Positions 2,270 through 56,535 of a stretch of 64,000 nucleotides of DNA are shown piece after piece (position 1 is the first letter of the stretch; the number at the start of each line of letters is the position of its first letter). Position numbers and translations under genes: made by a program. The notes beneath the pieces are model-generated. The model ran no database searches. It had not been told where the DNA came from and saw nothing but the letters and a program-made list of their open reading frames with translations. The stretch lies in the NCBI RefSeq assembly GCF_014127105.1, contig NZ_CP059902.1, forward strand, positions 3,594,501-3,658,500, in the 5' to 3' direction. Source of the stretch: Devosia sp. MC521 (GTDB lineage: Bacteria > Pseudomonadota > Alphaproteobacteria > Rhizobiales > Devosiaceae).

Positions 2270-2923
2270 ATGAGCACAGTCGCCATTATTGACTACGGCG
2301 CTGGCAATCTGCATTCGGCAGCCAAAGCGTTCGAACGTGTGGCAGCAGAACGCGGTCATGGTGAAAGCGTCATCGTCACCAGCGACCCAGACCTCGTCCG
2401 TGCGGCCACGCGCATCGTCCTCCCCGGCGTCGGCGCCTATGCCGATTGTAAGGCAGGCCTCGATGGCGTCACCGGCATGGTCGACGTGCTGGAAGAAAAA
2501 GTTCTCAACGGCACCACACCCTTTTTGGGCGTTTGTGTTGGCATGCAATTGCTGTCCACCGAAGGTCGCGAGAAGGTGGTTAGCAAGGGCCTCGGTTGGA
2601 TCGACGGCGCGGTGGAGAAAATCACCCCGTCTGACTCAAGCCTTAAAATTCCGCACATGGGCTGGAACACGCTGACCATCACGCGCCCCCATGCGCTCTT
2701 GAAAGACATTCCGGATGGACCTGATGGGCTGCACGCCTATTTCGTCCACTCCTATCACTTCAAAACCGACGCGGCAGAACACCTCTTTGCCACCACCGAA
2801 TATGGTGGCTCGTTCACCGCTTGCGTTGGCCGCGACAATATCTTTGGCACGCAGTTCCACCCGGAAAAGAGCCAAGCGCTTGGCCTGCGTCTCATCAATA
2901 ACTTCTTGGACTGGACCCCATGA
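2270..2923 (+). CDS. hisH: Imidazole glycerol phosphate synthase, glutaminase subunit
   Basis: Class I glutamine amidotransferase that supplies ammonia to HisF. The nucleophile elbow [11 protein letters not shown] holds the catalytic Cys, and [10 protein letters not shown] near the C-terminus holds the His and Glu of the triad. The oxyanion strand PGVGAYADC is also present. I chose ATG at 2270 (217 residues, [16 protein letters not shown]), which puts the conserved IDYGAGN at the N-terminus, over the longer frame from 2198. AGAAAGG lies upstream. The stop overlaps hisA by 4 bases (ATGA), implying translational coupling. Confidence 0.96.
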
Positions 2924-3648
2924 TCCTCTTTCCTGCAATCGATCTTAAAGATGGTCAGTGCGTTCGCCTCAAGCTGGGCGATATGGACCAGGCTACTGTC
3001 TTCAACGACAACCCAGCCGCTCAGGCCAAGAGCTTTGAAGATCAGGGTTTTGAATATCTGCACGTGGTCGACCTCAACGGCGCTTTCGCTGGTGAGAGCG
3101 TCAATGGGGGTGCCGTTGAAGAGATTTTGAAAACCGTCAAATTCCCGGTGCAGCTGGGCGGTGGTATCCGCAACCTCGGTCATATCGAAAGCTGGCTCGA
3201 TAAGGGTCTTGCCCGCGTGATCCTCGGTACTGTTGCCGTGCGTGATCCAGCCCTCGTCAAGGAAGCAGCGCAAAAATGGCCGGGCCAAGTTGCTGTTGGT
3301 ATCGACGCGCGCAAAGGCATGGTCGCCGTTGAAGGCTGGGCGGAAACGTCTGAACTTTCCATCCTTGAATTGGCCAAGCGTTTTGAAGGCGCAGGCGTTG
3401 CCGCCATCATCTATACCGACATCGACCGTGATGGCGTTCTGGCTGGCATCAATTGGGAGTCTACTCTTGAGCTTGCTCGCGCCACCTCGATCCCCGTTAT
3501 CGCTTCGGGCGGTCTGGCGTCGATGGATGACATCGAACGCATGACCCAGCCGGAATATGCTGTGCTTGAAGGCGCGATTTCGGGCCGAGCGCTTTACGAT
3601 GGTCGCATTGATTCACGTGAAGCATTGGCACGATTGAAGGCCAAATGA
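2920..3648 (+). CDS. hisA: Phosphoribosylformimino-5-aminoimidazole carboxamide ribotide isomerase
   Basis: TIM-barrel isomerase (ProFAR isomerase) of histidine biosynthesis, 242 residues. Both catalytic aspartates are visible: [12 protein letters not shown] at the N-terminus and [14 protein letters not shown] near residue 168. Phosphate-binding motifs GGGIRN and ASGGLAS are in their expected positions. Coupled to hisH by ATGA at 2920 and to the following small gene by ATGA at 3645. A parS-like sequence (3609-3624) lies inside the last 14 codons. Confidence 0.96.
3609..3624 (+). promoter_or_regulatory. parS-like ParB site inside hisA
   Basis: TGATTCACGTGAAGCA matches the universal parS TGTTTCACGTGAAACA at 14 of 16 positions and contains the full TTCACGTGAA core. 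It overlaps codons for IDSREAL near the HisA C-terminus. As a single site it could be chance. It is listed because seven further sites share the same core and the same A at position 3. It is the weakest of the set, having G in place of A in the right half. Confidence 0.5.
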
Positions 3649-8097: not shown

Positions 8098-8113
8098 GGA
8101 TTCACGTGGAACA
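8098..8113 (+). promoter_or_regulatory. parS-like ParB site in the gpmA/ada spacer
   Basis: GGATTCACGTGGAACA matches parS TGTTTCACGTGAAACA at 13 of 16 positions, with the invariant CACGTG core. It lies in the 70-bp spacer between two convergent genes, where no promoter is expected, which favours a chromosome-organisation role over gene regulation. Confidence 0.7.
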
Positions 8114-16505: not shown

Positions 16506-16521
16506 GGATTCACGTGAAACT
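16506..16521 (+). promoter_or_regulatory. parS-like ParB site between dnaJ and dnaK
   Basis: GGATTCACGTGAAACT, 13 of 16 matches to universal parS, identical over 16 bases to the site at 21673-21688. It is not inside a promoter or terminator seen here. Confidence 0.75.
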
Positions 16522-21672: not shown

Positions 21673-21688
21673 GGATTCACGTGAAACT
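21673..21688 (+). promoter_or_regulatory. parS-like ParB site after pncA
   Basis: GGATTCACGTGAAACT begins at the first base after the pncA stop codon, in a 23-bp convergent spacer. Sixteen-base identity with the site at 16506. 13 of 16 matches to universal parS. Confidence 0.75.
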
Positions 21689-26685: not shown

Positions 26686-27576
26686 ATGAGTGAGACCAGC
26701 AAGAATTTCTTTATTGCCGGCAGTAGCTTTGACGCGCCGCTCTTGTTGCCTGGGCTTTATGTCGTTGCGACACCCATTGGCAATCTTCGCGATATCACCA
26801 TTCGTGCGCTTGAAACTTTGGCTGCTGCCGACGCGATCCTCTGCGAGGACACCCGCACCTCGGCAAAGCTGCTTGATCATTTTGGTATCCGCGCCCGCCG
26901 CGTCGCCTTTCACGAGCACAATGAGCGCGAGAAGGCAGAAGATATCGCCAACCGCATTAGCGCTGGCGCAGTGATTGCACTCATTTCTGATGCGGGCACC
27001 CCCCTGCTCTCCGATCCGGGCTTTCCGCTCATCCGCGTCTTGGCTGAACAGAACCTGCCGGTCTTCCCCATTCCCGGAGCCTCGGCGTTGCTTTCGGCTT
27101 TGGTGGTGGCAGGCCTGCCAACCGATGCTTTTGCCTTCCATGGCTTCCTGCCACCCAAGGCCGGTGCGCGTGCCAATGCGCTCGGTCGTCTGAAGGATTC
27201 ACGTGAAACCTTGGTGTTTTACGAAAGCCCCCGCCGCATCGCAGACACGCTCGCCTCCATGGCGGAAGTGTTTGGCGACCGACAGGCTTCGGTCTCTCTG
27301 GAATTGACCAAGCGCTTCGAGCGCACGTTTCGCGGGCCTCTTTCGGAGTTGGCTCAACAGTTCGCTGAAGATGACACCAAGGGCGAAGCTGTTATTGTCG
27401 TTTCCGGTGCGAGCGAGCCAACCGCCCCAGCGGCAGAAGATTGGCAGGCAGCACTGACCCAAGCCATGGCCGATGCGCCCCTGCGTGCCGCCGTCGATGA
27501 CATCGCCGCGCGTTTCAATTTGAAGCGCAAGGAGGTTTACGATGCTGCCCTCGCGATCAAGGCGCAGTCGGAATAA
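26686..27576 (+). CDS. rsmI: 16S rRNA (cytidine(1402)-2'-O)-methyltransferase
   Basis: Methylates C1402 of 16S rRNA. The tetrapyrrole-methylase fold shows GLYVVATPIGNLRDITIRAL at residue 23, CEDTRTSAKLLDHFGI, and the SAM-binding LISDAGTPLLSDPGFPLI. 296 residues. The 3' end overlaps the yraN start by 35 bases. A parS-like site lies inside (27195-27210). Confidence 0.94.
   Translation: MSETSKNFFIAGSSFDAPLLLPGLYVVATPIGNLRDITIRALETLAAADAILCEDTRTSAKLLDHFGIRARRVAFHEHNEREKAEDIANRISAGAVIALISDAGTPLLSDPGFPLIRVLAEQNLPVFPIPGASALLSALVVAGLPTDAFAFHGFLPPKAGARANALGRLKDSRETLVFYESPRRIADTLASMAEVFGDRQASVSLELTKRFERTFRGPLSELAQQFAEDDTKGEAVIVVSGASEPTAPAAEDWQAALTQAMADAPLRAAVDDIAARFNLKRKEVYDAALAIKAQSE
27195..27210 (+). 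promoter_or_regulatory. parS-like ParB site inside rsmI
   Basis: GGATTCACGTGAAACC, sharing 15 consecutive bases (GGATTCACGTGAAAC) with the sites at 16506 and 21673. It spans codons for KDSRETL. An internal site with no promoter context argues for a DNA-organising rather than regulatory role. Confidence 0.7.
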
Positions 27577-37735: not shown

Positions 37736-37886
37736 ACGCTACGCACAACTTAAGCTGGCCTTTGTTTCAACATTTCTGGGTTAATGGAGTTTTAGGGTAA
37801 CCAATATGGCAGTTCGCATGGTTAATAGACCATATTGCGTTCTCTTTGCGTTCTGTTAGCCTGCCTTTGGCTAGGGGGACATACCT

Positions 37887-39012
37887 ATGGTGACACGCGT
37901 TGGCACCGTGGCGTTTCAGGGGATCGAAGCTGTTCCGATTGAGGTGCAGGTTCAGATAGCGCCGGGTTTACACCATATTTACATGGTCGGGCTGCCGGAT
38001 AAGGCCGTCAAAGAAGCCAGCGAGCGTGTCCGCGCGGCGCTCGTTGCCTCGGGACTTGGTCTGCCCGCCAAGCGCATTACGGTCAATCTGGCCCCAGCTG
38101 ATCTTCCCAAAGAGGGTAGTCACTACGACTTGCCGATCGCGCTGGCGATGATGGCAGCTATGGGCGCGATCCCCAGCGATGCGCTCGATGGCTATCTGGT
38201 CCTGGGGGAATTGGGGCTTGATGGCCGCATTTCTCATGTCAGTGGCATCTTGCCCGCCGCGCTTGCCGCCAGTGAAAAGGGCATGGGCGTTATTTGCCCC
38301 GCCGCCTCTGGTCCCGAAGCGGCCTGGGCGGGCGAAGACATTGATATTATTGCTGCCGATAGCCTCCTCGCGGTGGCCAATCACCTTGTTGGCCATCAAT
38401 TGCAGGCTCGGCCCAAACCCGCCCGCCAATCAGAAGAGCGCAGCAATTTGCCCGATCTCAGCGATGTGCGGGGACAAGCTGTCGCTCGTCGTGCCCTCGA
38501 AGTGGCCGCGGCTGGGGGGCATAATCTTTTATTCGTAGGGCCGCCCGGTGCTGGAAAATCCATGCTGGCGGCCCGCCTACCCTCTATTTTGCCGCCACTT
38601 AGTCCGCGAGAATTATTGGATATTTCCATGATCCAATCCATTTCCGGCGAGCTGGTCGGCGGCGTCCTCTCCGATCGTCGTCCCTTCCGCGCTCCGCACC
38701 ACTCTGCCTCGATGGCAGCCCTTGTTGGCGGCGGCTTGCGGGTGAAACCCGGAGAGGTAAGCCTTGCCCATAATGGCGTGCTCTTTTTGGATGAATTGCC
38801 TGAATTTGCGCCCAATGTTTTGGATAGTCTGCGTCAGCCTCTGGAGAGCGGCGAAACAGTCATCGCCCGGGCAAATGCCCGCGTCACCTATCCTAGTCGC
38901 TTCCAACTCATTGCCGCTATGAACCCCTGTAAATGCGGTTACGCCGGAACGCCGGGTCATATTTGTAAGCGTGGCCCGGCCTGTGCCGGTGATTACCAGG
39001 CCCGTATCTCTG
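37887..39012 (+). pseudogene. comM: comM (YifB-type Mg-chelatase-like ATPase), 5' part, interrupted by IS1
   Basis: The first 375 codons of ComM: the Lon-like N-domain (MVTRVGTVAFQGIEAVPIEV, GRISHVSGILPAALAAS) and the AAA+ domain with Walker A FVGPPGAGKSMLAARLP and Walker B GVLFLDELPEF. The sensor region IAAMNPCKCGY and a Cys-rich loop precede the break. ComM promotes branch migration in natural transformation and is widespread. The frame continues only 11 codons into the IS before TAG at 39045. The missing end resumes at 39799. Confidence 0.93.
39004..39012 (+). repeat. Left target-site duplication of the IS1 element
   Basis: GTATCTCTG, repeated exactly at 39799-39807 on the other side of the insertion. 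A 9-bp duplication is characteristic of IS1-family transposition. Confidence 0.88.
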
Positions 39013-39798
39013 GGGACTGTTTACAACTTGCTCATTTGGGATTCTAGTTTGATTGCTTGGGGGTGATTTGCCGGAGGGTTTGAGATGGATTGTCCAGATT
39101 GTTCTAGCACTGCCACGGTCAAGCGCGGCCTCAAGGCGGGTTACCAGCGATTTAGCTGTAAGCAGTGTGGTCGGTACTTTACTGATCGCGCCCCTAAATT
39201 CAGCGCTGAGACAAAAGCGCAGGCCGTTCAGATGTATCTCAACGGCACCGGCATTCGGGCCATTGGGCGCGTCCTTTCGGCCTCCCCAGCCGCGGTCCTT
39301 AAATGGATCCGCAAGGAGCACGACATCTTGCAAGAGCGGATTGCGGCTCAGCGCGGTACGCCAGCGAGCGGGCCCGATATTATTGAGATGGACGAGATCT
39401 ATACCTACGTCCAAAAAACAGCAGCGAGCGGTTATCTGGACCGTTTATAGCCGAAGACAGCGCCGCGTTGTTGCCCACCACATCGGTGACAAAGGCGTAG
39501 AAAGTGCGATCACGGCCTATCGCTTGGCCCTTCAGGCTGTGGGTGAGATCGGGGCCATCTTTACCGATGCCAACTCTTGTTACGCACTCGCTTTCAAGCG
39601 CAATGGCGTGACCGTGCCACATCTGGAAACAAAGGCGCAAACCCACCTGATTGAGTCCTCCAATTCCTCAATCAGGGACAATCTTGCGCGGTTCAATCGG
39701 CGGACAAAGCGCGTCTCCAAAACAGTGCAGATGCTCGAGATTACGCTCAATCTGTTCTTCAACAGACACCTCATAAGGAGTCCCAAATGAACAGTCCC
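39013..39798 (+). mobile_element. IS1-family insertion sequence in comM
   Basis: A 786-bp element flanked by 9-bp direct repeats. Terminal inverted repeats: GGGACTGTT at 39013-39021 and AACAGTCCC at 39790-39798. Inside these the left end has 11 extra bases (39022-39032, containing CAACTTGCT) before CATTTGGGA (39033-39041), while the right end joins TCCCAAATG (39781-39789) directly to AACAGTCCC. Since IS1 ends normally carry a CAACTT-type block, the right end looks like it lost 11 bases. The length, duplication size and transposase all fit IS1. Confidence 0.9.
39085..39790 (+). pseudogene. IS1-type transposase, split at an A6C run
   Basis: Frame one (39085-39450) starts MDCPDCSSTATVKRGLKAGY and has an InsA-type zinc finger (CPDC...CKQCGRYF), an HTH (RAIGRVLSASPAAVLKWIRK) and the first DDE aspartate in IIEMDEIYTYVQK. 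The rest of the DDE domain lies in the plus-one frame to 39790: TVYSRRQRRVVAHHIGDKG, second Asp in IFTDANSCYALAF, and Glu in THLIESSNSSIRDNLARF. The break is at CAAAAAACAG (39412-39421). IS1 uses an A6C slip, but in the minus-one direction; here one A must be lost, so this copy may be frameshifted, or depend on transcriptional slippage. Confidence 0.8.
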
Positions 39799-39807
39799 GT
39801 ATCTCTG
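39799..39807 (+). repeat. Right target-site duplication of the IS1 element
   Basis: GTATCTCTG, identical to 39004-39012. Removing the element plus one copy restores an uninterrupted comM reading frame (ISG-PFLDRIDI junction). Confidence 0.88.
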
Positions 39808-40208
39808 GCCCTTTTCTGGATCGCATTGATATCCGCATTGATGTGCCAAGCGTATCGGCCGCCGAGATGATCGGTGCCGTCGGGGAGGCCGAGTCTTCGG
39901 CCGTTGTGGCTAGCCGTGTGGCACGGGCAAGAGAGTTTCAGCGCCAACGCTATGACGCCGCTGGACACCCTGAGGTCCTCACCAATGCGTCAGCCACGTC
40001 AACGCTGATCTAGCGACTTGTTGAGCCTGATCGGGAAAGTCAAAACTTGCTGCTGCAAGCGGCAGACCGGTTCAATCTTTCGGCTCGCGCCTATCACCGC
40101 GTTCTCAAAGTCGCGCGGACCTTGGCTGATTTGGCTAGTTCTGAAAAAGTCTCTCGTCCGCATATCGCCGAAGCGCTGAGCTATCGATTGATCTTTGAAA
40201 CACGTTAG
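39799..40208 (+). pseudogene. comM: comM 3' part, with an additional in-frame TAG
   Basis: Continues the ComM protein in frame after the IS: PFLDRIDIRIDVPSVSAAEM, VASRVARAREFQRQRYDAAG, and the C-terminal helicase-like block RFNLSARAYHRVLKVARTLA ending HIAEALSYRLIFETR at TAG 40206. An in-frame TAG at 40011-40013 (ACG CTG ATC TAG CGA) interrupts the conserved region where other ComM proteins read through. The gene therefore carries two separate disabling changes. Confidence 0.88.
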
Positions 40209-40282: not shown

Positions 40283-40663
40283 ATGGCGAAAAAGCAGACG
40301 AGCAAGTTTCGCTATTTCTGCGTCGCAGCGCTGCTCTTGGCGCTCTGCTTTGGCCTTGTAACGTTCCGCCTGCCCTTCTGGGTCGCCGCACTGTATTTCG
40401 GCATGGGGCTCGTTAGTCTGGTGCTTTATGCCATCGACAAATCATCTGCGCGTGGGGGGCGTAGACGTATCCGGGAGCTGCATCTGCTGTTTGCGGACAC
40501 AGCGTTTGGTATTCTGGGCGGGCTACTCGGGCAGCAATTGTTTCGGCACAAAACGCAAAAGCAGCTTTTTGCGGTGTCGGCGCTCGCACTTACCGCGTTC
40601 CATTTACTGGTTATTTTCGCTGTCATTGAGATGACACCAGGGCCGGTGCGCTCGCTCAACTAA
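40283..40663 (+). CDS. DUF1294 family membrane protein
   Basis: A 126-residue integral membrane protein with four hydrophobic segments (about residues 12-28, 30-48, 72-88, 95-115). The conserved DUF1294 signature appears as YAIDKSSARGGRRRIRELHL followed by GGLLGQQLFRHKTQKQ. Function unknown. A tandem pair of parS-like sites follows its stop. Confidence 0.85.
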   Translation: MAKKQTSKFRYFCVAALLLALCFGLVTFRLPFWVAALYFGMGLVSLVLYAIDKSSARGGRRRIRELHLLFADTAFGILGGLLGQQLFRHKTQKQLFAVSALALTAFHLLVIFAVIEMTPGPVRSLN

Positions 40664-40668
40664 TGCCG

Positions 40669-40684
40669 TGTTTCACGTGAATCC
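40669..40684 (-). promoter_or_regulatory. parS-like ParB site, first of a tandem pair
   Basis: On the plus strand TGTTTCACGTGAATCC; on the minus strand GGATTCACGTGAAACA, the exact window consensus. 14 of 16 matches to universal parS. It is the only site in reverse orientation, and faces its neighbour at 40700. Confidence 0.82.
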
Positions 40685-40699
40685 AAAATTCCAAATCCG

Positions 40700-40715
40700 T
40701 GATTCACGTGGAACA
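40700..40715 (+). promoter_or_regulatory. parS-like ParB site, second of a tandem pair
   Basis: TGATTCACGTGGAACA, 14 of 16 matches to universal parS, centred 31 bp from the previous site, about three helical turns. It ends one base before the stop codon of the convergent WYL-type regulator gene. Confidence 0.82.
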
Positions 40716-41423
40716 TCAGGTGTTCCCTTCGGTGTACTTCACATCGTGCTCCCACGAGGCGCGCCATTCCTTTTCGAGCTGACCCCGTCGCTTGCCGTAG
40801 CGTTCTTCGGTGAGCTGAAGGCTGACAATGCGATCCGTGCGGAAGTTTCGGAAGGCGTTGCGTAGCAGGCACCACGCTGCAATGGTTTGTTTTCCTTCGT
40901 AAAACGCGAGCCCGACAGGCCAGATCGTCCTTGAACTCGCGCGCGCCTGCTCATCTTGGTAGTCGATGATGACAGCGCGCTCCTGCCGCACAGCTTGGCG
41001 AATATCGCCGAGCACGGGCACGGGTTTTCTCTGGCCCCAAATGGCGACGGGCCAAAGAGCGGTGTCGCTGATCCGATCGCGCAAATCATCCGGCGACGCG
41101 GTCGCAATTTTTGCCAAGGCATTGCGCGCGGCTGCACCCAAGCCATCATCGGGTTGCGCCTCGACCCAGCGTGCGCCGAGGACGAGTGCCTCTAGCTCTT
41201 CGGGCGTGAACATGAGCGGTGGGAGGAAAAATCCGGGTTTCAGCATGTAGCCAATTCCCGCTTCGCCATCGATTGGGGCGCCCAGCCCAATAAGGGTTTG
41301 GATGTCGCGATAAAGCGTGCGCACAGAGACTTTTTGTTCCTGCGCCAAAGCAGCGGCAGTAACCGGCATACGGTGACGCCGCAAGGCGTCCATGATCGAG
41401 AAAAGTCGCTCGGTCTTATCCAT
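40716..41423 (-). CDS. YafY-type HTH/WYL-domain transcriptional regulator
   Basis: A 235-residue protein. The N-terminal HTH_11 domain reads RLFSIMDALRRHRMPVTAAA and KVSVRTLYRDIQTLIGLGAP. The C-terminal WYL-type sensing domain includes VIDYQDEQARASSRTIWPVG and AAWCLLRNAFRNFRTDRIVS. Such regulators sense nucleic acid or stress signals, or control local catabolic genes. No adjacent partner gene makes the target obvious. Confidence 0.85.
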   Translation of the reverse strand: MDKTERLFSIMDALRRHRMPVTAAALAQEQKVSVRTLYRDIQTLIGLGAPIDGEAGIGYMLKPGFFLPPLMFTPEELEALVLGARWVEAQPDDGLGAAARNALAKIATASPDDLRDRISDTALWPVAIWGQRKPVPVLGDIRQAVRQERAVIIDYQDEQARASSRTIWPVGLAFYEGKQTIAAWCLLRNAFRNFRTDRIVSLQLTEERYGKRRGQLEKEWRASWEHDVKYTEGNT

Positions 41424-53759: not shown

Positions 53760-56535
53760 GGCCCGGCCCAAAAAGCCACAGTTCGCGCTCAAAACCGCGC
53801 CGACCATTCTTGCCGAACTCGATAGTATCGTGGGCGACGAGGCCGCTGGCTCGCCCAGGGCTCGCGCGCTGGTTCTGGCCCATATTCGTCAGACGCTCCA
53901 GACCGCCCGCAAGGCCGCCGAGGTCGACCTAATCGCCACCGGCAAGGGGACGCGCTGCGCGCAAAACCTTTCGGCTGCGCAGGATGAGATCATCCGAGCG
54001 GTCTATTCCTTCGCAACAATGCGCGTTTATCCGGTCGATAACCCTTCTGGCGCTGAAGCCATCGCGCTCTCGGCTGTTGGCGGCTATGGCCGTGGCACGC
54101 TGGCGCCGGGTTCGGACATCGATCTGCTGTTTATCCTGCCCTATAAGCAAACCCCTTGGGGCGAGCAGGTCACAGAATATGTGCTCTACATGCTCTGGGA
54201 TTTGGGTCAAAAAGTTGGCCACGCCGTGCGCTCGGTGGATGAGTGTATTCGCATGGCTCGCGCCGATATGACGGTGCGCACCGCGACGCTCGAATCCCGC
54301 TATGTGACCGGAGATAAAGAGCTGTTCTCGCAACTGGTCTCGCGTTTTGAAACCGAGATCATGCCGAAGACCGGCCCGGAATTCATCGCTGCCAAAATGG
54401 CCGAGCGCGATGAGCGCCACCGACAAATGGGCAATACTCGCTATGTGGTTGAGCCCAATATCAAAGACGGTAAAGGGGGCTTACGCGATCTCAATACCCT
54501 CTTCTGGATCGGCAAATATTTCTATCAGGTCAAAACCAGCCAGGAGCTGGTGGACAAAAAAGTTCTCAGCGCTGCGGAATATCGCCACTTCTCTCGCGCT
54601 GAAGATTTCCTTTGGGCAGTGCGCTGCCACCTTCACTACATCACCGGTCGTGCTGACGAAAAGCTGACCTTTGACGTGCAGCCCGATCTGGCGCGCCGCA
54701 TGGGCTATGAGCAGCGTCTTGGGATGCTAGGGGTTGAGCGCTTCATGAAGCGCTATTTCCTTGTGGCCAAAGACGTCGGTGATCTCACCCGTATCATTTG
54801 CGCCAGTCTCGAATTCCATCACGTTAAAGACATGGACGTGGTTGGCCGCATGCTCTCGCCTTTCCGTAAGGGCAAGAGCAAGATCAAGGGCGAAGCCGAT
54901 TTCGTCATCGACACCGGGCGTCTCAATATCGCTGCCGCCGATGTGTTTGAAAAAGACCCAGTCAATCTCATTCGCATGTTCATGGTCGCCGGGCGCGAGG
55001 AACTGCTGTTCCACCCTGACGCCATCAAGGTTATTCGCGACTCTCTCCATCTCATCGACAACAAGCTGCGCAATGATCAGAAGGCAAATGCCTTTTTCCT
55101 GACTGTTCTCACCAGCTCCACCTATGTCGAGCGCATGCTGCGGCAGATGAATGAGAGCGGCGTTCTGGGCAGGTTTGTGCCCGATTTCGGCAAGATCGTC
55201 GCCCTGATGCAGTTCAATATGTATCACCACTATACGGTGGATGAGCATTTGATCCGCTCGGTTGGGATTATGGCGGATATCGCCAATGGCGGTATGCGCA
55301 CTGAATTGCCGCTGACTCATGAGTTGCTGCCGCAGCTCAACGACACCAAGCTGCTTTTTGTGGCGCTGTTCCTTCATGACATCGCCAAGGGACGCCCGGA
55401 AGATCACTCCATCGCTGGTGCGCGGATCGCGAAAAAACTGTGCCCACGCTTCGGCCTGACCCCAGCCGAAACAGATACTGTCGCTTGGCTGGTCGAAAAC
55501 CATTTGGTGATGAGCGAGATTGCGCAGGCGCGCGATATTCAGGATCCTGAAACTGCCAAGGCATTTGCAGAAATCGTGCAATCGCCACAGCGTCTGGCCC
55601 TGCTGATGATCCTTACCGCTTGCGATATTCGCGCTGTGGGTCCTGGCACGTGGACGGGTTGGAAAGGCTCGTTGCTGCGGGCGCTTTATTACGCGACCGA
55701 ACCCCTACTGTCGGGCGGTCATTCGCAAGTCAGTCAATCGGATCGCGTCAATCAGGCGAAATACGCCTTGAAAGAGGCGTTGTCGGCCTGGCCTGCTGAA
55801 GACGTCGACGCCTATATCGGTCGTCACTACGACCACTATTGGCTCCGTGCTGAACCAGAATTGCAGATCGAGCACGCGCGGATGATCCGCAATGCCGATC
55901 AGTCGGGTAACCCCTTTGCTGGGTCGATCCGGGTGAAGGCGTTTGAGAGCATCACCGAGGTGAGCTTTTATACGCCCGACCATCCGCGCCTGCTCTCGCT
56001 CATCGCGGGTGCCTGCACTATGCAGGATGCGTCGATTATTGGGGCGCAGATATTCTCGACCCGTGACGGCCGCGCCATCGACACTTTCCGCCTTCGTCGT
56101 TCGTTCACCTCCGATGAGGACGAAAAGGTTCGCGCCACTCGAATTATCGATACGGTCAAGCAATTGCTGCAGGGCCAGCGTCAGGTGACCATCGATCTGG
56201 GCAAGGAAAGTCGCCACAACAAGCGTCTCAAACCTTTCGCCCTGCCCGCTCAGGTCTCGGTGTCCAATGCCATCTCGGAAAAGTTCACCGTTATTGAAGT
56301 GGCCGGTCTCGATCGCATTGGTCTGCTCTATGCTTTGACCCGCGAGATATCCGATCTGAGCCTGACCATTGGGTCGGCTCATATCGGCACCTATGGGGAA
56401 AAAGCGGTCGACGTTTTCTATGTCACTGACCTGACGGGCCAGAAGATTCACGTGAAACAGCGCCAGAAGAAAATCCACGATTCTCTTCTTGCCGTTTTCG
56501 AAACACCGGACGCGAAGAAGCCAAGCAATGGCTAA
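53740..56535 (+). CDS. glnD: Bifunctional [protein-PII] uridylyltransferase / uridylyl-removing enzyme
   Basis: Senses glutamine and modifies the PII proteins GlnB/GlnK. The nucleotidyltransferase block is GGYGRGTLAPGSDIDLLFIL, the GlnD-linker includes EPNIKDGKGGLRDLNTLFWI, and the HD hydrolase domain has FLHDIAKGRPEDHSIAGARI. Two C-terminal ACT domains (about 740-820 and 845-925) bind glutamine; one begins FTVIEVAGLDRIGLLYALTR. 931 residues. A parS-like site lies at codons for QKIHVKQ. Confidence 0.96.
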   Translation: MTLAETEARPKKPQFALKTAPTILAELDSIVGDEAAGSPRARALVLAHIRQTLQTARKAAEVDLIATGKGTRCAQNLSAAQDEIIRAVYSFATMRVYPVDNPSGAEAIALSAVGGYGRGTLAPGSDIDLLFILPYKQTPWGEQVTEYVLYMLWDLGQKVGHAVRSVDECIRMARADMTVRTATLESRYVTGDKELFSQLVSRFETEIMPKTGPEFIAAKMAERDERHRQMGNTRYVVEPNIKDGKGGLRDLNTLFWIGKYFYQVKTSQELVDKKVLSAAEYRHFSRAEDFLWAVRCHLHYITGRADEKLTFDVQPDLARRMGYEQRLGMLGVERFMKRYFLVAKDVGDLTRIICASLEFHHVKDMDVVGRMLSPFRKGKSKIKGEADFVIDTGRLNIAAADVFEKDPVNLIRMFMVAGREELLFHPDAIKVIRDSLHLIDNKLRNDQKANAFFLTVLTSSTYVERMLRQMNESGVLGRFVPDFGKIVALMQFNMYHHYTVDEHLIRSVGIMADIANGGMRTELPLTHELLPQLNDTKLLFVALFLHDIAKGRPEDHSIAGARIAKKLCPRFGLTPAETDTVAWLVENHLVMSEIAQARDIQDPETAKAFAEIVQSPQRLALLMILTACDIRAVGPGTWTGWKGSLLRALYYATEPLLSGGHSQVSQSDRVNQAKYALKEALSAWPAEDVDAYIGRHYDHYWLRAEPELQIEHARMIRNADQSGNPFAGSIRVKAFESITEVSFYTPDHPRLLSLIAGACTMQDASIIGAQIFSTRDGRAIDTFRLRRSFTSDEDEKVRATRIIDTVKQLLQGQRQVTIDLGKESRHNKRLKPFALPAQVSVSNAISEKFTVIEVAGLDRIGLLYALTREISDLSLTIGSAHIGTYGEKAVDVFYVTDLTGQKIHVKQRQKKIHDSLLAVFETPDAKKPSNG
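56444..56459 (+). promoter_or_regulatory. parS-like ParB site inside glnD
   Basis: AGATTCACGTGAAACA, 14 of 16 matches to universal parS, with both CACGTG and a perfect right half (GTGAAACA). It falls in the last ACT domain of GlnD and is the easternmost site seen. Confidence 0.78.

Follow-up and report, generated by a model that had tools for sequence, protein, structure and literature searches.

Two facing parS sites in a convergent intergenic spacer of Devosia sp. MC521 are probably ordinary members of an origin-proximal parS cluster

The two closely spaced parS-like sequences at positions 40669 to 40715 of the analyzed 64,000-nucleotide stretch (the window, 3594501 to 3658500 of the 3.78-Mb single-contig chromosome) are best read as two ordinary origin-proximal parS sites, whose closeness is a by-product of lineage history and which would act as redundant ParB loaders. 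We assign this reading a probability of about 85%. Site B (TGTTTCACGTGAATCC) lies on the minus strand at 40669 to 40684, and site A (TGATTCACGTGGAACA) lies on the plus strand at 40700 to 40715. Both are 16-mer matches with two mismatches each to the canonical parS sequence TGTTTCACGTGAAACA, exactly where the preliminary description had placed them. The separation of 31 bp given there is correct as a start-to-start distance, and the actual gap is 15 bp. In site B, GANTC occupies the inner half on the right (GAATC at 40679 to 40683), and in site A the inner half on the left (40701 to 40705); with both GATTC halves inward, the sites face each other as described, and the accompanying label "tandem" was wrong. 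The spacer is indeed convergent. It is bounded by the stop at 40663 of a plus-strand gene for a 126-amino-acid DUF1294 protein (40283 to 40663) and by the end at 40716 of a minus-strand gene for a YafY-like HTH_11 and WYL transcriptional regulator (40716 to 41423), both assigned by Pfam. The relatives of this regulator with a known source come mostly from Devosia.

The sites are almost certainly parS, a prediction in which the sequence, the clustering around parAB, and a canonical ParB agree. The window contains eight matches to the 16-mer at up to three mismatches, compared with 0.20 expected in shuffles. The core pattern GNTTCACGTGNANC was found at 15 distinct genome sites, all within 3571891 to 3650958 (79 kb around parAB), and its reversed control at none; this clustering and the excess over shuffles rule out chance matches. 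A looser search with the 16-mer at up to three mismatches returned 21 genome places, five of which are far from parAB and have no CACGTG core, and its reversed control returned 10. Successive parS sites of this genome are 0.03 to 16 kb apart. The AT skew switches sign near hemE, which suggests that the origin is located there; beyond parA, we recognize by sequence what are presumably rsmG, mnmG, mnmE, hemE, and maf. The genome-wide distribution also bears on whether the two sites are operators of the local HTH/WYL regulator. They adjoin the regulator gene, but they lie at the 3' ends of both flanking genes, and the core pattern has 13 further occurrences in the genome, all of them around parAB. 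This distribution led us to reject operator function, which we consider extremely improbable.

The parB gene (3578650 to 3579522 of the chromosome) is the only ParB_N match in the genome, and its product carries the Pfam domains ParB_N, HTH_ParB, and ParB_C. The best solved-structure match was 6t1f (3.9e-74), which we take to be Caulobacter ParB. In the alignment to 6t1f, R173, T179, and G201 were kept and a lysine replaced A184 (numbering of PMC7383237), a position described in that source as permissive for altered ParB specificity. The lysine in this protein (L001, 1006 to 1881) might relate to the acceptance of GATTC.

The remaining window sites are all on the plus strand. Five are single 16-mer matches: GGATTCACGTGGAACA at 8098 to 8113, GGATTCACGTGAAACT at both 16506 to 16521 and 21673 to 21688, GGATTCACGTGAAACC at 27195 to 27210, and AGATTCACGTGAAACA at 56444 to 56459. 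The sixth, TGATTCACGTGAAGCA at 3609 to 3624, lies inside an open reading frame (2920 to 3648) that we take to be hisA-like. The 14-base core of this site was found about 18 to 21 kb from parB in 24/24 genomes, and its unusual GCTTC half was likewise kept in all 24, so that coding and centromere constraints may overlap within the reading frame. The view that sites A and B are two of the best sites stands within the window, where four sites tie at two mismatches, but not genome-wide, because the sole perfect parS of the genome lies outside the window, in the gene upstream of parA. Similarly, the pair does differ from the single scattered sites of the window, but a second close pair (59 bp) is located near parAB, beyond the window and outside the view of the preliminary description.

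Next, we compared the locus among relatives in 67 entries, comprising the window, the loci of 49 of 75 relatives (the other 26 had no site), and 17 of 23 further genomes of the genus (the regulator gene found no match in the remaining six); the set probably counts a few organisms twice. Site A recurs in relatives, a type B site is present in most entries, and both sites are present in 42 of the 67. In 40 of these 42, the sites are in facing order, A then B, with spacings of 23 to 3,951 bp, and 38 have this order with a separation of 0.75 to 4 kb. The order is reversed in the other two (L072 and L077; 502 and 516 bp). Only the window (31 bp) and D. aurantiaca (L120; 23 bp) have spacings below 60 bp, and these two compact pairs differ by just 8 bp. 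Conservation of the 31-bp spacing, the absence of which the preliminary description had named as a refuting outcome, therefore fails, and a conserved spacing of the pair is refuted by the spread among relatives. The facing order shared by 40 of the 42 might point to a functional role for the arrangement, with the caveat that the entries share descent.

The neighbors of the sites vary as well. Commonly, site A lies between an ScfR-type regulator and isocitrate lyase, or DUF1294 adjoins it directly; site B comes after isocitrate lyase, after a cyclopropane-synthase-family gene, or after DUF1294. Neither ScfR nor aceA was found at the locus in 15 of the 67 entries (scored at this locus, so that the genes may sit elsewhere in those genomes), and site A was still kept, indicating that the site outlives its neighbor genes. 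Because spacing and gene content vary while the sites recur, the kept unit is each site and not the spacing. In a tree of 64 entries based on six flanking proteins, the window and D. aurantiaca were sisters amid entries with separated sites. This tree is midpoint rooted, the node joining the two has no printed support, and its parent node has a support of 0.58; the choice between loss and insertion thus rests on parsimony. Most likely, the genes between A and B were lost in this lineage, and the closeness of the pair looks recent and accidental.

The window DUF1294 protein has only the DUF1294 domain in Pfam, and a relative (L064, 13975 to 14634) has an extra N-terminal cold-shock domain; the identity between the window protein and the relatives' versions is about 32 to 51%. 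In addition, a ComM-like gene at 37806 to 40196 looks interrupted. A long relative (L064, 15177 to 16805) aligns to it as two pieces, at 37806 to 39023 and 39726 to 40196, and the comparison with L120 gives three matching pieces in different frames.

After loading at parS, ParB moves into the adjoining DNA as a CTP clamp. Sites A and B would both load ParB in this way, and the protein would spread outward from each. In relatives, isocitrate lyase, cyclopropane-synthase-family, and/or DUF1294 genes lie between A and B, and an ScfR-type regulator sits next to site A on the side away from site B. Loss of the intervening DNA, rather than insertion, in the lineage of the window and D. aurantiaca would have left the sites 23 to 31 bp apart, and A and B would now be two redundant loaders inside one ParB domain.

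The preliminary description had instead proposed that the close pair is a plausible strong nucleation point for ParB spreading; on a rival reading of this kind, the pair would be a nucleation center selected for cooperative loading through its close spacing. Twenty-four origin regions were compared (our genome and 23 others, about 100 kb each; 86.7 kb in G023). The two sites lie 31 bp apart start to start, and close pairs do recur. A tandem close pair at the mnmG-mnmE spacer, about 3.4 kb from parB, was found in 22/24 genomes with the sites 35 to 112 bp apart, and one further close pair (47 bp) was found in G022. Among the matches listed, close pairs were also present in other genera and families, including one in G103 whose two sites face each other at 18 bp and have the same half-site types as the A-B pair. 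However, among the 24 genomes the 31-bp facing pair occurs only in that of the window, its spacing is unconserved, and the mnmG-mnmE pair is the better conserved one. The phase also differs: the A-B spacing corresponds to 2.95 turns, whereas the mnmG-mnmE spacings (often 35 to 37, 46 to 47, or 59 bp in L166 and homologous stretches) are commonly near a half-turn phase, a weak pattern in itself. Nine distinct Devosia spacings grouped around a half-turn (R = 0.64, P about 0.03). The P value was 0.0025 for 23 values from the family, inflated by shared descent, and 0.13 for 17 values from other families. The best-fitting periods were 10.8, 11.1, and 12.9, with no clean 10.5, and the spacings were hand-picked, partly from among the matches listed; the helical phasing of close pairs is thus a hint. 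Moreover, a single parS is reported to be enough in C. glutamicum (PMC7083940) and in P. aeruginosa (PMC4368675). Two sites may yield a higher ParB peak than one, but nothing was found that marks the A-B locus as privileged, and we consider a selected nucleation center highly improbable.

Because the GATTC halves of A and B face inward, the pair also forms an inverted repeat (40669 to 40715) with 15-bp arms at 40669 to 40683 and 40701 to 40715 and a 17-nucleotide loop. The convergent genes are separated by 52 bp, of which this repeat covers 47, and its predicted RNA folds at -21.5 kcal/mol (z = -4.7) on the plus strand and -20.2 kcal/mol (z = -3.8) on the minus strand. It could accordingly be viewed as a bidirectional terminator of both genes, independent of ParB. 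However, no T-run follows the hairpin, as an intrinsic terminator would have, and the repeat is absent from the terminator-like matches, although the loop limit of 8 in that scan would miss a 17-nucleotide loop anyway. In addition, any close facing parS pair forms such a repeat, and most relatives with both sites have them apart. We consider the terminator quite improbable, and the RNA hairpin is kept as a possible by-product of two ordinary parS sites that came to lie close together.

A feature shared by sites A and B with most other parS sites of the related genomes examined is their asymmetry. In the 24 genomes, 306 parS sites were scored. A single GANTC half is present in 256 of them and absent from 50, and no site has two; each of the eight window sites has exactly one. 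The GANTC half is nearly invariant (GATTC in 254, GACTC in 2), and its partner is GTTTC in 202, GCTTC in 27, GTTCC in 25, and GCTCC and GATCC in one each. With random assortment of halves within genomes, about 51 double forms were expected (37 to 64 in 2,000 shuffles) versus the zero observed, an expectation in which orthologous sites repeat across the 24 genomes. For the genome of the window alone, the chance of no double was 0.013. When the one-sided excess was tested singly in six genomes, five gave P values of 0.004 to 0.021, and there was none in G142 (P = 0.41). The double-GATTC form GATTCACGTGAATC was found in 0/75 genomes of the genus and 0/150 of the order, sets that contain some incomplete genomes. 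Elsewhere in the family, 40/41 genomes from other genera (41 of 61 sampled) had the one-sided form GATTCACGTGRAAC, as did 65/150 of the order (five of the family among them; the other 85 were without it) and 8/190 of a class sample that included our own genome.

The one-sided motif lies in GANTC-poor DNA. The window contains 49 GANTC motifs versus 282 in dinucleotide shuffles, and the eight parS sites, with one motif each, account for 8 of the 49. With a higher-order Markov model, the depletion was milder, with 109 motifs versus 241 expected in the 104-kb region of this genome and 2,976 versus 4,932 over the 24 regions, 256 of the former inside parS. The genome encodes a CcrM homologue, which matches 6pbd at 6.4e-160 and has a RAMA domain; sites A and B thus each carry the GANTC motif in a genome with CcrM. 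The GANTC half points toward the inferred origin at 196 of the 256 one-sided sites (10 of 13 in our genome), and, by position bin, about 10 bins point toward it, 2 away, and 1 is mixed. The top strand of the right arm is T-rich, yet the one-sided sites there carry A, so strand composition is no simple cause of the polarity. This orientation is a hint, since the orthologous sites are not independent.

These patterns could mean that parS in Devosia and part of the order is one-sided by design, that ParB loading responds to or is polarized by hemimethylation after replication, and that the double-GATTC form is selected against. One half would be GTTTC-like and the other would have a single CcrM site (GATTC); the hemimethylated state would follow replication of the origin, and the facing pair would place two methylation sites 22 bp apart. 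Several findings count against this reading. The altered GATTC-type halves keep the motif twice (GACTC) and lose it three times (GATCC twice and GATAC once), numbers too few to decide on selection for GANTC as such. Furthermore, 50 of the 306 sites are without GANTC, including the perfect site upstream of parA, and most sampled genomes of the order are without the one-sided form. Methylation of the GANTCs at the Caulobacter parS locus was described as not significantly altered by extra methylases (PMC5172544), a result that shows neither coupling nor its absence in Devosia. Literature searches found nothing joining "parS sites" with Devosia and no title on bacterial segregation among works containing GATTCACGTG, and none of the titles listed dealt with a methylation motif located within the parS of a chromosome. 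Judged from sequence patterns, a role for methylation seems unlikely; the one-sided form may instead simply reflect site recognition by this ParB, in which A is tolerated or preferred in one half.

Altogether, the pair is an example of the evolution of a dispersed bacterial centromere, in which parS sites persist and the genes between them come and go; close pairs can therefore arise without selection on spacing. The finding that parS sites in GANTC-poor DNA never carry more than one CcrM motif each makes a link between methylation, replication timing, and ParB loading testable.

The sites resemble the canonical chromosomal parS TGTTTCACGTGAAACA, as reported for Hyphomonas (PMC6650430), in being 16-bp near-palindromes with a central CACGTG that cluster close to parAB and the presumed origin and are accompanied by a canonical ParB. 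They differ from it in that one half is GANTC (almost always GATTC) instead of GTTTC at 256 of the 306 sites in the 24 genomes, and in number, since Hyphomonas is described with two sites (PMC6650430) and about 15 are spread here over 79 kb. The parS sites 1 to 7 of Caulobacter, also an alphaproteobacterium, offer a precedent for asymmetry, with a GTGAAA half reported as conserved (PMC5815017). However, the second half is loose there and usually fixed as GATTC here, and the five strongest Caulobacter sites lie within 5 kb (PMC5815017) compared with steps of 0.03 to 16 kb here. Repeated, redundant parS sites are shared with C. glutamicum, for which ten origin-proximal sites, few ParB zones, and the sufficiency of single sites are described; the available part of that report makes no mention of a one-sided methylation motif (PMC7083940). 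CcrM motifs near an alphaproteobacterial centromere, with a suggested role in extra regulation, are also described for the 3parS of the repABC plasmid pAMI4 (PMC9040568), where GANTC lies about 500 bp from the parS of a RepB system, in contrast to its position inside the parS half-site here.
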